Source: Capitulum mitella (Eukaryota > Arthropoda > Thecostraca > Pollicipedomorpha > Pollicipedidae). Taken from it: a stretch of 64,000 nucleotides of DNA. The stretch is from positions 26,619,201-26,683,200 of the forward strand of contig CP099846.1 in NCBI GenBank assembly GCA_030062745.1, given 5' to 3'. This document shows positions 52,401 through 58,400 of the stretch, piece after piece; within the stretch, counting starts at the first letter, position 1; the number at the start of each line of letters is the position of its first letter. The notes under the pieces were generated by a model. It did no database searches. It saw nothing but the letters and a program-made list of their open reading frames with translations, and was not told the origin of the DNA. A program made the position numbers and the translations under genes.

Positions 52401-55400
52401 ATACGCGGCCCGTCCCCAAAAGAACGCAGCCAAATACAGAGCTGAGGTTTCCTCCAAGCCACGCTCACAGTACGACTTGGAAAGAGGCGACCTACTTAAG
52501 ACATTCCCAAGGGTTCAGTCACTCCCCGCGCAATGACCGTTATTCTGAACGGCATCGCAGATCAGGCCAGGAGTCGGGTCACCAAAACCTGCCGCAATGG
52601 TCTCAGCCCGCCGCGACCACAACTCGGGACAGCGTCAAAAGTCAGGTCCAGGGTCATAGTCCACGACCCGCCGACACGGTCCCAGCCCCACCGCCACTGT
52701 CTGCAAAAATGCAGTCAGCGGCGGCGGTTTCTGCCTGGCCGCCTGCTTATCTGCTCATCTCCGACCCGACCCGGCCCCTTCCCCGGCCTTGGCATGCCGT
52801 GCGAGTGACAACACACAGACACACGTGCACAGAGACACGCAGAGCGCGGCAGGCCGACGACCCCTCACCGCGCGTGTCCTTCTCCTTGAGACGCTTCTCG
52901 ACGTCCCCGGCCTTGTGCTTCACACGGCCGAAAAACTCTGCGCCAGTCAGGTCAGCACGTCACGCCCCGCGGCCAGGCAGGCACGATCATAACGAAGCAA
53001 ACCCCTGCACCCACCACCGCCCGCGACCTCGACAAGCATTTACAGTGGCAGATGTTTACAGATGATTACAGTGGTCACTCGAGACACTCGCGTGACCTCC
53101 TGGTGTTAACGTACAAAACACGGGACATGCGGCACTCAGCACAGTTCTAGAAAAGAGACCAGCCCGTTCAATATTTGTTAGTTCTACGATGGTCGCATTC
53201 CTAGACGCACATCACCGCGCAATATGCATGTGCTATGAAGCGAGGTCACGCTGAGCAGACAATGCATGCCGCCATACCGTAACACTGCCCGGCGTGGGCG
53301 AGGCCCGAAGGATCGGCGCAAGGGCAGATCACCTGGCCCGAATACCGCGACAGCAGAAGACGATCGACAGAGGCAGTCTGCCGCCGACCGTTACCAGTGC
53401 TACCAGCATTACCACCGTTACCTGTCGCGGGAGCCGTATCCACGAGTCCGCGCGCACCTGAGACCCTCTCCTGGTGCTCCCGCGGTGAGGACGAAGTCCA
53501 CCCGATTCGAGACGTCAACACCGTGCCTGAGACCCCGAGCCGTGCTCGGCGTCCGCACGCCAGACCGCACCACCTTCAGCCGGAGCGTCACACCGCGCGG
53601 CGCCGCCGCGCCGCCCGCCGTACCTGAGATCTTTTGCTGGGCGTCGGGCGACTCGGACTGGGTCAGTTCCAGCACGCGCTGGTACTCGGTCAGCTGGATG
53701 AGGCCGTGCTCCTCCAGCTGCTCGGTGGACATCTGGCTGTAGGCCTCCGTCAACAGGTCCACTGCCGGCCGGCCGGTGGCGGTCACCGACCGCCCGCGGC
53801 CCCAGCACGACTGGCCCCGGCGAGCCCCAGCACAGCACAGCGACCCCGCCACCTGCACTGCAGTCCCGGCAGCGAGCGGATCGGCACGGTGTCCACGGGG
53901 CAGACTTTCCGGGCGGGAGTAAAAGGGCCGACTGGGACAGGCCAAAAGCAGCAGCCGGTGCGGGAGGGCACGGTGGGAGGAGGACGGCGCAGGAGGCGGC
54001 GGCGGCCTAAACAAAATCCCCAGCAACCACCAGAAGCAAGCGCCCAGAGGCAGGCAGCCTACACCAGTCACGTCAGTCGTCTGTAGCCGCCGGCGTCAGG
54101 ACGACGGCCCGCCGCGGGACCACGAAGCGGAGTCCGAATTCCGTCCGGCTCAGGTTCTTCCGAATGCGCCGCAGGCAGCGCAGAAGGCCTTTCGCCCAAC
54201 AGAGCTGAAGACGCCAGGCGTCTCGACACAGAAATAAACGCGGCAGAGGGAAGATACAACGCAAGGACTGTGGTCGCACCTAAAAACTATGCTCAACAAT
54301 TAACCGCCAAACCGGAGTGCGTTCCACACCACCAACAAAGCACAGCTTCAGCTTCATCCGCCCCGGGCTAATTCACCTTCCCCACGCCCTGCTGACGTAC
54401 TTCTCCCAAAACACCCTCACCAACATGAACAACACACCGCACGCCACCAATCGCAGCCGTCCGCCACATCCCGGCCGCCCAACACACACGTCCAGCACCC
54501 CCTCCCGCCATACCTCGGCCCGACGGCTCACCGATCAGCGACTCGACGTCGAAGAAGAGCACGTGGCCGTCCGGGTCGGCTGCGGTGGTGCGCAGGCCCT
54601 GCACCATGAGCGCGTACGAGCGCGGCTTGTCGGCGTCGTGCTGGCCGTGCAGGCTGCCCGCGTTGTTCTGCAGCTGCTGCAGGCCGCGCTGCGGGCACAG
54701 GACGCGCTCAGACCCGAGAGCGCCGGTCACACTGGCCGGGATGTTACGGCGTACGGCAGTCAGCCCGCGGCCACAGCGGCCAGGCTGTTCGGACGGGACG
54801 TCAAACTGAGAGCGGACACATTACGCGTGGCTCCAGTGCAGCTGCAGACGAGCTAGGTCCAGTGTACCTCGTACACAGCGACGCTACCCTGGACGCATTG
54901 AAGAATGCTTTTTTTCAGTCAGGAGCCTGAAGTTGCCGTTACACTACGCTGCTGTCCGCTTGTAATGCCAGAAGGGCATGGGCACACAGTGAACATGGTA
55001 AATGTCTTATGCGCATAAGTTATGGGATCGGCTCTTCGAGAACTTCACGCTGACGTCACGCAGGCCGCGTCGCGCAGCGCTCTCTCCGATCCACCCCGCC
55101 ACCGTCACACCACTGCCGTCAGGTCACGACCACGTCACTGATGTTGCGTCATCACGCCTCTCAGATTTCGCCGTCCCCGTCACAGAGCAGCGGGCGGCAG
55201 CGGCGGGCGGCAGGCCGGTCGGTCGCCGATCCCCGCTCGCCGCGCGCTCACCTTGGCGGCGTGCCGAATGGCCGACAGGTTGCGGTGCCGCAGCCCGCGG
55301 AAGAAGTGCACCGCCGGGTTGGCCATGCCGCCCTCGCTGGTCGACACGGTCATGTTCTCGTCGCAGGCCGAGAGTACCTCCTGAGCCGTGGTGCCGTGTA

Positions 55401-58400
55401 CCACACGGTCCAGATGACCTGTCACATGCAAAGATGCAATGTCAGGGGATAAGAAGACCTCCTGGGCGGTGGTGCCGTGCACCACACGGTCCAGGTGACC
55501 TGCCACATTCGCACATGCAATGTCACGGGACGACAGCACCTCCAGGGCGGTGGTGCCGTGTACCACACGGTCCAGGCGACCTGCCACATACACAGGTGCA
55601 TTGTCAGGGGACGTGAGGACCTCCTGAGAGGTGGTGCCGGGCACCACACGGTCCACATGGTTTGTCACAAACAAAGACAATCACTCTGCCTCGGGTGGAG
55701 CGAACTTCCACGAACGGTACACGACAATCCTGGCGCCCTACCGCCATTTCTTCGGTATGCCCATAAGCCATCCACGCCAGACAGCTACAGCGATGGCGAG
55801 GACAAAGACCAATTACCCTAAATGGGCCGAAGCTGTTTGTTTGCTGAACGTGAAAGCACATTGTCATGGGCAAACAGTAATAAGACCAAGGGCACGGCAA
55901 CAAAGCGATACTCTAAGAATAGCGCAAACGCTCTCTACATATACGACGCAAAAGCAACGACGTAATCCCAAGAATTACAACCACCTACGTCATCCATAAC
56001 ACGCGTCATAACATCGAGGGCCCGGTCGCCACTGGGTCCCGTGGACGCCCGTTTCCGATGGCCGACCGAGGCTTAAGTGTCACAACACCGCAATCATGAC
56101 CATTCTCCGGCACGTAACCCAAACAACTGAAACGGTCTACATTGCTGCACTGCCATCACGGAGGATATTCGGCAACACAAGTGATGCTGTAAGGAAGCAT
56201 TAGCGTTATCAGCAGCAACGACGTTTAGCATAAAAAACGAGGTTCCCAAATGAGGCAACGACAGAAGGCCTATGAAAGGATTGACCAGTAACGTTGGCGC
56301 TGTCTTGGTAGTTTGAGTTCCTCGATTCTGCTACCCTCAGCCCGATGCAGCGAACTGAGGCAGTGACTGCGATTTCGGACTGGGTAATACGGACAGGACC
56401 ACATACTGGCACCCGTCGCATCTCATACATCGTATAAAGTACCCCTTCTCAGGACCAGTCCCTAAAATTACCCGTGTCACGTAGTCTGGGAGCATCGTAA
56501 CGTAATTAATAACAGCAACGTTACGGGTTCATTAGGCCAGGATCGGTGAGAAAGCAAAATACGCATGTATCACCGGATCTTCTGAACGTCTGACCGGTTG
56601 GCTGCTCTGAATGGCCTCTCACTGACCAAGCCCTACCTGCCAAGCGTTTGCCCCAACGACATCTACCGGACGTCCGCCGTACTAACCCGTCTCCATCTGC
56701 CAGACGGACACGCTGCCGTCCTCGGTGGCGACCACCAGGAAGTCGTCCAGGGGGCGCCACTTGACGGTGGCGATCGGGAACAGGTGCCGCGACGCCAGCA
56801 TCAGGCACTTGCGCTCCTTGAGCGACAGCAGGGCCACCGAGTAGTCGGCCGCCACGCTGCAGATGCACTGTTGCATGCGCGGCTGTTGGCGGACGGCGCA
56901 TGGTCAGAGCGCGCGGCCGGAACACGCAGGGCAGGCGACACACGGAACAAACACGGACGAAACAGACGGCGACAGCACCGGTTTGGCACGCAATTCCGAG
57001 AAACCGGACCACGCAGGGGTCTCGTTTGCCACCTCGCGTCACTTCGAAACTTGAACCGTAAGGACGAACGCCGATACCAAATCGCTCACGATAGCCTCGA
57101 ACGAACCTTTTCCAGCTCAACAAACCGCCAGCTGTCCCGAGCTCACCGAGACCGTCTCGGGCGGCACGTGCAGTTGCGAGATGATGCCCGCCTGCACGAC
57201 GAAACGGTGCTGCAGCGCGCCGGTGAACAGGTCCCAGAGGCAGACGGAGAAGTCCTCGCCGCCGGAGACCAGCTGCGAGATCGGGTAGCGTCCGTGGCTC
57301 AGGTGCGGGAACAGCAGCGCCGTCACCCGGCCGCGGTGGCCAGACAGAATCTGGTGGATCGGCCAGTCTGCCGGAGCGGAGGGCCGAGCTCGGTCACACG
57401 GCAGCAACCCGGCCGCGGAGGCCCGACAGAATCTGGTGGATTGGTTGGTTTTGCGAAGCACGGCAATTTTCAGTCACGACTTCAGTAAGAAATTCAGGGA
57501 AAAGGTTGTGCCGATCTTCCTACGGAGGACAGCAAGAGAATGGCCTGCCGATGGGTTAAAACGATAAGTTATTAAATGATGTGTATCGATGAAACGAAAA
57601 TTATGTAGCACTAAAAAGCATTTAAATATAAACCGCATGTTTAGTGGGCTACCGGGTCCCCACTTCTTGTTATCATTCCTCAACACCAGATATGACAAAC
57701 GTCACACACACAGTCCGCCATCCACGAGCTCGTTTTTATGCTTAACATCAGGAAAGCAGTCGCTGGCCTGTGTGAAACCTTTCCATGACGCGTAGATGCA
57801 TCACCGCCAGCGAATTCCATCACGGCTGGGAACTACAGGCGACCAGGATGGCGACTATGTGCGGCTTGCCAAGTGGTTCGACACGCCTGCAGTGAAACCC
57901 AAACACAAGCAAAACCGCTAACAGGACAACACTGACAGTCGCAGCTTTGGTGTTCGCCGTGCAGCAGGTGAATCATGACGGTGTGGTGGTGGTGTGGGGG
58001 GGGGGGGCAGCACTGACTGTCGTAGCTCTGGTGTTTCCCGTGCAGCAGGTGGAACATGACGGTGTGCGTGGCCGACACGATGATGATGGTGCCGTCCTCG
58101 CGGCCGCACACCAGCCGGCCCTCCTGCAGCGGCAGGTAGATGCTGGACGTCAGCCGAGGCGCGCCGCCCTCCAACGACTCCTGCCGGACAGACGAGGGAC
58201 GATCAGACGTCACTGCGCCCGGCGTCAGTGCGTCAGGCGTCAGTGATGTCTAACGGCAGCCGAGGAGCCCTCCACAGACTCCTGCCGGACAGAGCAGGAG
58301 CGGTCAGACGTCACTGCATCAGTAGCCAGTACGTCGGCCATCAGTAGCATTAGCATATTAGACGTCAATACGACAACCTGGCACAGCAGGCACCGATACA

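Follow-up and report, generated by a model that had tools for sequence, protein, structure and literature searches.

Lancelets (amphioxus) have tandem repeats, described as mirages, whose units straddle an intron-exon boundary and combine an intronic with an exonic part (PMC3087553, PMC3902484). As these reports portray them, mirages occur at 5' or 3' boundaries, their units measure 10–160 bp over the loci, copies in BflGb6 are 81–100% identical, AG or GT is kept in many, though not all, copies, and end copies escape homogenization; similar repeats are reported in PGBD5. Related human and potato cases have been discussed, and such edge duplications are raw material for intron gain. Here we analyze an 81-bp array across a 3' splice site of the WDR7 gene in the arthropod Capitulum mitella, located in a stretch of 64,000 nucleotides (GenBank assembly GCA_030062745.1, contig CP099846.1, positions 26,619,201 to 26,683,200 of the forward strand), hereafter the window, in whose coordinates all positions are given.

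The array across a WDR7 acceptor

WDR7 occupies the minus strand of the window: 21 human WDR7 segments used as tblastn queries match in order from 63542 to 7230 (E 6e-28 to 0.4, exceeding 0.1 for two of the 21); beyond these, hits above 0.09 amount to scattered chance matches or WD40 cross-matches. The 5' end of the gene lies outside the 64-kb window. The GT-AG splice sites listed for the comparisons below comprise 26 acceptors and an equal number of donors; the acceptors of the exons with donors 59797 and 15181 were not placeable and were left out. The exon that carries the array matches human WDR7 in tblastn and runs from its first base, 55418, to its last, 55252 (minus strand), as delimited by tblastn, the splice sites and the translation, which ends ...AAK. 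It is in phase 1 and follows the exon ending at 56687, whose translation ends WQMETG. A PDB sequence search with the array-bearing exon alone gave no match, and a longer query had WD40 proteins other than WDR7 among the best 60 of 462 matches. One scan of genome contigs for relatives returned 17 loci, WD40 stretches in bacterial records, and was not used further.

The start of this exon is repeated upstream together with the end of the preceding intron, in an array that covers 55360–55677 (minus strand) and comprises 3.5 units, or four copies of the exon edge. Tandem Repeats Finder (TRF) delimited it at 55369–55655 with a period of 81 bp, 3.5 copies, 82% matches and 0% indels. A second repeat finder gave a copy spacing of exactly 81, and the self-match at offset 81 spans 55371–55595 with 81% identity; matches of threshold strength numbered zero in shuffled controls (three window shuffles, 200-bp blocks, every fifth offset sampled). 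The copies are 81–84% alike. A preliminary description of this DNA, made by a model from the letters and a list of open reading frames, had proposed an in-frame, open repeat of a WDR7 acceptor and exon edge at 81-bp steps, and this is what we find, with the minus-strand frame free of stop codons from 55680 through the exon. The ~54 nt of exon that it took to be repeated prove to be ~57–58 nt, followed in each unit by ~24 nt of intron end, and its acceptors at about 55419, 55500 and 55581 correspond to three AG sites whose first exon bases are 55418, 55499 and 55580. To these our analysis adds a fourth, outermost edge at 55661, which is preceded by AA.

The two upstream AG sites are intact and in frame, so that the additions of 27 and 54 residues envisaged in that description would be possible. 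Unit 1 (55419–55499) ends with CAG before the authentic exon, and its own acceptor, with first exon base 55499, would add 27 residues; unit 2 (55500–55580), with its own acceptor at 55580, would add 54. In unit 3, the outermost (55581–55661), the preceding bases 55662–55663 are AA instead of the acceptor AG. Its flank is T-rich and, except for a 2-nt gap, aligns to the intron part of the unit beside the authentic exon; we take it to be the flank that existed before the duplication. A duplication that crossed the original boundary, followed by loss of the outer acceptor, is consistent with this alignment. By the general branch-point motif, CTGAC at 55441–55445 may serve 55418 as its branch point, with counterparts in GTGAC before 55499 and CTGAC before 55580 and none at the outermost copy. 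The pyrimidine tract is weak at all three AG edges.

The array thus resembles mirages in being a tandem series of copies of an intron end and an exon edge (PMC3087553, PMC3902484). It shares three of the six listed mirage features: its units span the boundary, its unit length and identity lie within the reported range, and AG is present at three of the four edges. Greater divergence of end copies, another of these features, may also be present: changes from the consensus of units 1–3 number 6, 8 and 12, with the most in the outermost unit (n = 3), and the trend is clearer in the 52-bp array described below. It differs from the amphioxus cases in its arthropod host, in the gene concerned and in the involvement of five edges of one gene, and it is known from one sequence. 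A literature search found no arthropod case of such repeats among the sources it covered, most subscription papers being outside that coverage.

We consider it likely that the array is a mirage-type minisatellite in which 55418 is the main 3' splice site and the upstream AGs are tolerated passengers. In this scenario tandem duplication would have affected a segment of ~81 bp, made up of the intron end (candidate branch point, weak pyrimidine tract and CAG) and ~58 nt of exon start, and the duplicates would then have diverged by drift as part of the intron. Splicing would mainly continue to use 55418, the acceptor nearest the exon, and the upstream AGs would perhaps be used at a low level, giving in-frame forms with 27 or 54 additional residues.

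Duplications at other WDR7 edges

Five WDR7 exon edges carry local duplications, the 81-bp array and four others. Acceptor scores come from a position weight matrix built on 22 WDR7 acceptors of this gene, chosen by homology, for which the median score is 7.6.

More striking than the 81-bp array is a 52-bp array of 3' splice-site modules at 14209–14831 (minus strand; TRF and repeat scans), at the acceptor with first exon base 14239. Its modules follow the pattern CTCTGAC...CTCTCGGCAG|GCTTCATGTC. Ten upstream modules were listed, nine of them with AG, a count that leans high because the listing pattern required purine-G. The proximal modules are near-identical and the distal ones decayed: four proximal modules have 46/48 identities to the typed consensus and the distal six have 30–40/48. 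Six upstream AGs score 7.9–10.3, and the authentic 14239 scores 9.8. When seven upstream sites are translated in the phase of the exon, six stop after 10 residues and the seventh after 44. The WDR7 arrays, chiefly this one, may be a natural setting in which to study the choice that the spliceosome makes among near-identical acceptor modules.

The three remaining duplications, all on the minus strand, are smaller. At 58147–58345, the authentic acceptor 58180 has a copy at 58281, 101 bp upstream, with AG intact in both; the copy scores 9.4 against 9.6 for 58180, and read-through from it stops after 13 residues. Gapped alignments, made without a control, suggest a possible degenerate third copy of this edge at ~58440–58542. 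At 57924–58071 an exon end is duplicated together with its donor, GTCAGT: the last exon base is 58018 and that of the copy 57937, a downstream shift of exactly 81 bp that leaves the frame intact and open. Between the two donor copies there is a run of C. At 57305–57459 the exon start at acceptor 57367 is duplicated, the copy lying 82 bp upstream with AA instead of AG.

The periods at the five edges are therefore 81, 81, 82, 52 and 101 bp. Two of the five are multiples of 3, which is about the chance rate, and the occurrence of 52, 82 and 101 beside 81 indicates that duplicated units in this gene need not be in frame. That a single arthropod gene has five duplicated edges suggests a mutational tendency of wider reach. 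In a module test, four of the 26 acceptors and one of the 26 donors reached a score of at least 20, as did 3.9% of control positions, which include the arrays themselves.

Acceptor choice, coding constraint and rival explanations

The three AG sites of the 81-bp array score 3.6 (55418), 2.6 (55499) and 5.1 (55580), and the AA site scores -1.8. The best out-of-frame AG inside the array, at 55623, reaches 4.4; an AG just outside it, at 55685, reaches 5.2 and is met immediately by a stop. The scores pick out no acceptor. We favor 55418 as most likely the main 3' splice site because it is the sole copy that adjoins a complete exon and because amphioxus mirages are reported not to disturb regular splicing (PMC3902484, PMC3087553). 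Use of the in-frame upstream acceptors is possible, though unlikely.

The array is probably neutral. Relative to their consensus, units 1–3 carry 7 synonymous and 19 replacement changes, and neutral simulation gives 7.1 +/- 2.2 synonymous changes. Pairwise ratios of nonsynonymous to synonymous substitution rates (dN/dS) are 0.94, 1.27 and 0.89 over the whole unit, so that no codon constraint was detected in the upstream units over their full length. Variable sites in the exon part of units 1–3 number 5, 6 and 7 at codon positions 1, 2 and 3. In neutral simulations all three units remain open in a fraction of 0.69, and neither this openness nor the neutral-like split of changes argues for a translated insert. 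One comparison had looked otherwise: between the exon and unit 1, the first 15 codons differ by 5 synonymous and 0 replacement changes. We read this excess as a constraint acting on the authentic exon, because a clear excess at third positions is lacking among units 1–3 themselves; dN/dS between the authentic exon and units 1, 2 and 3 is 0.18, 0.22 and 0.61.

Several points weigh against the mirage-type reading. Over the 19 exon-derived codons only, the same pairs of units give dN/dS of 0.46, 0.75 and 0.55, which makes a weak constraint on these codons possible, and the constraint test as a whole has little power, resting on 26 changes. The authentic acceptor has no advantage in strength over its copies, and all three AG sites fall in the lower third of the acceptors of the gene. 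Repeats are also not clearly drawn to splice edges: of 11 repeat clusters in the exon-dense parts of the gene (7227–15400 and 50790–63600, the large intron between them being left out), four contain an acceptor, where random placement predicts 2.14 (P = 0.12), and five contain an edge of any kind, where it predicts 3.37 (P = 0.20). This placement test supports a preference for edges weakly and does not demonstrate one. The minisatellite of IFI6 (6-16), moreover, reportedly supplies multiple splice donor sites, as Turri et al. are said to have found in 1995. Its units serve as splice donors (PMC4526556), the authors of the amphioxus studies themselves note that mirage copies could act as cryptic splice sites (PMC3087553, PMC3902484), and tandem repeats at human exon-intron boundaries are reported to generate alternative splicing (PMC2812944), which argues against presuming that the WDR7 array is neutral.

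The preliminary description had seen in the array a minisatellite acting as a protein-length switch. The minisatellite-like structure stands, and the switch finds no support. Under that proposal the three AGs would be alternative in-frame acceptors yielding WDR7 with 0, 27 or 54 additional residues after a WD40 blade (...WQMETG|GHLDR), that is, a V-ATPase assembly factor of variable length. The open frame, the unit length of 81, the slightly higher score of 55580 than of 55418 and the CTGAC or GTGAC upstream of each AG edge all agree with it, and human genes do use repeat units that carry splice sites (PMC4526556, PMC2812944). We nevertheless find it unlikely, given the neutral pattern over whole units, the unsurprising openness, the loss of the outermost AG, the other periods of the sister duplications with the early stops in the 52-bp array, and the regular splicing reported for amphioxus mirages. 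The IFI6 units share with those of WDR7 the possession of splice sites; in IFI6 these are donors whose use in mRNA is stated, and in WDR7 they are acceptors (PMC4526556). The human boundary repeats in duplicated genes are likewise of minisatellite size and lie at exon-intron boundaries, but they belong to recent primate paralogs, and transcript data back their alternative transcripts and novel introns, whereas the WDR7 array is known from DNA (PMC2812944). A broader version of the switch, to which we attach rather little credence, would make the splice-module arrays a copy-number dial, with the in-frame 81-bp duplications, of acceptor and of donor, adding blocks of 27 residues and the out-of-frame ones causing early stops, so that changes in the repeats would tune WDR7 in form as well as amount.

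The arrays could also be decoy or poison acceptors that reduce the output of WDR7 by diverting transcripts, in a proportion set by copy number, into frameshift or stop, and decay. The upstream AGs of the 52-bp array score around the authentic site, as does the 58281 copy, and all but one of the sites translated reach a stop after 10 or 13 residues; the 81-bp array itself, however, is in frame and open. An acceptor without a full exon downstream is also usually recognized more weakly, and the upstream copies have exon fragments only, so that we judge this account very improbable. Even smaller is the chance of an intron gain in progress, in which use of an upstream acceptor could let an 81-nt unit leave as a new intron, as in the tandem-duplication model. 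Units 1 and 2 start with GT and end with AG, the inner junctions between units thus reading AG|GT, and the candidate donor CAG|GTCACC at 55499 scores 6.3, within the 2.3 to 12.0 spanned by the gene's own donors; the donors at the two remaining junctions are weak, at 3.0 and 4.8, and plain use of 55418 requires no new intron. In potato, RdRp gained an intron through a duplication that ran across an intron-exon boundary, and its duplicated unit likewise holds a branch site, a pyrimidine tract, a 3' splice site and an exon start; its new intron is backed by RNA sequencing, whereas WDR7 offers weak to moderate candidate donors in DNA (PMC4974935). Tandem repeats are hard to assemble, and the proximal units of the 52-bp array are near-identical, yet we give an assembly artefact scarcely any credit, because the 81-bp copies differ at 16–19% of sites, more than read error or collapsed haplotypes would produce.

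Other repeats and reading frames in the window

Human WDR7 carries a variable-number tandem repeat with a 69-bp unit in a late intron, which, unlike the 81-bp array, is placed away from exon edges. A tandem repeat in the human gene has been proposed to encode a microRNA (PMC8239992). Within the WDR7 gene of C. mitella, TRF also detected a minisatellite of 38-bp units at 6994–7217, beginning ~10 bases after the stop codon, in the presumed 3' untranslated region. Tandem CTGACCCGC-like units, resembling branch points, occupy 10521–10569 and extend upstream to ~10720, shortly upstream of the acceptor at 10494. A perfect (CGG)25 run (TRF) lies at 18710–18784, and a 70-bp tandem duplication with 92–94% identity at 320–466.

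The large WDR7 intron contains three insect-type cuticle-protein frames on the plus strand (22892–23749, 29104–29973 and 40886–41701) that share 96–99% DNA identity. Pfam Chitin_bind_4 was recognized at E 4e-12 in both of the frames scanned (two of the three); cuticle proteins with this domain are not known to occur outside arthropods, and by these genes the window reads as arthropod DNA. The same intron holds, at 46180–47712 on the plus strand, an open frame of 510 amino acids that is weakly DEG/ENaC-like (Pfam ASC, 19.7 bits against a cut-off of 23.6).

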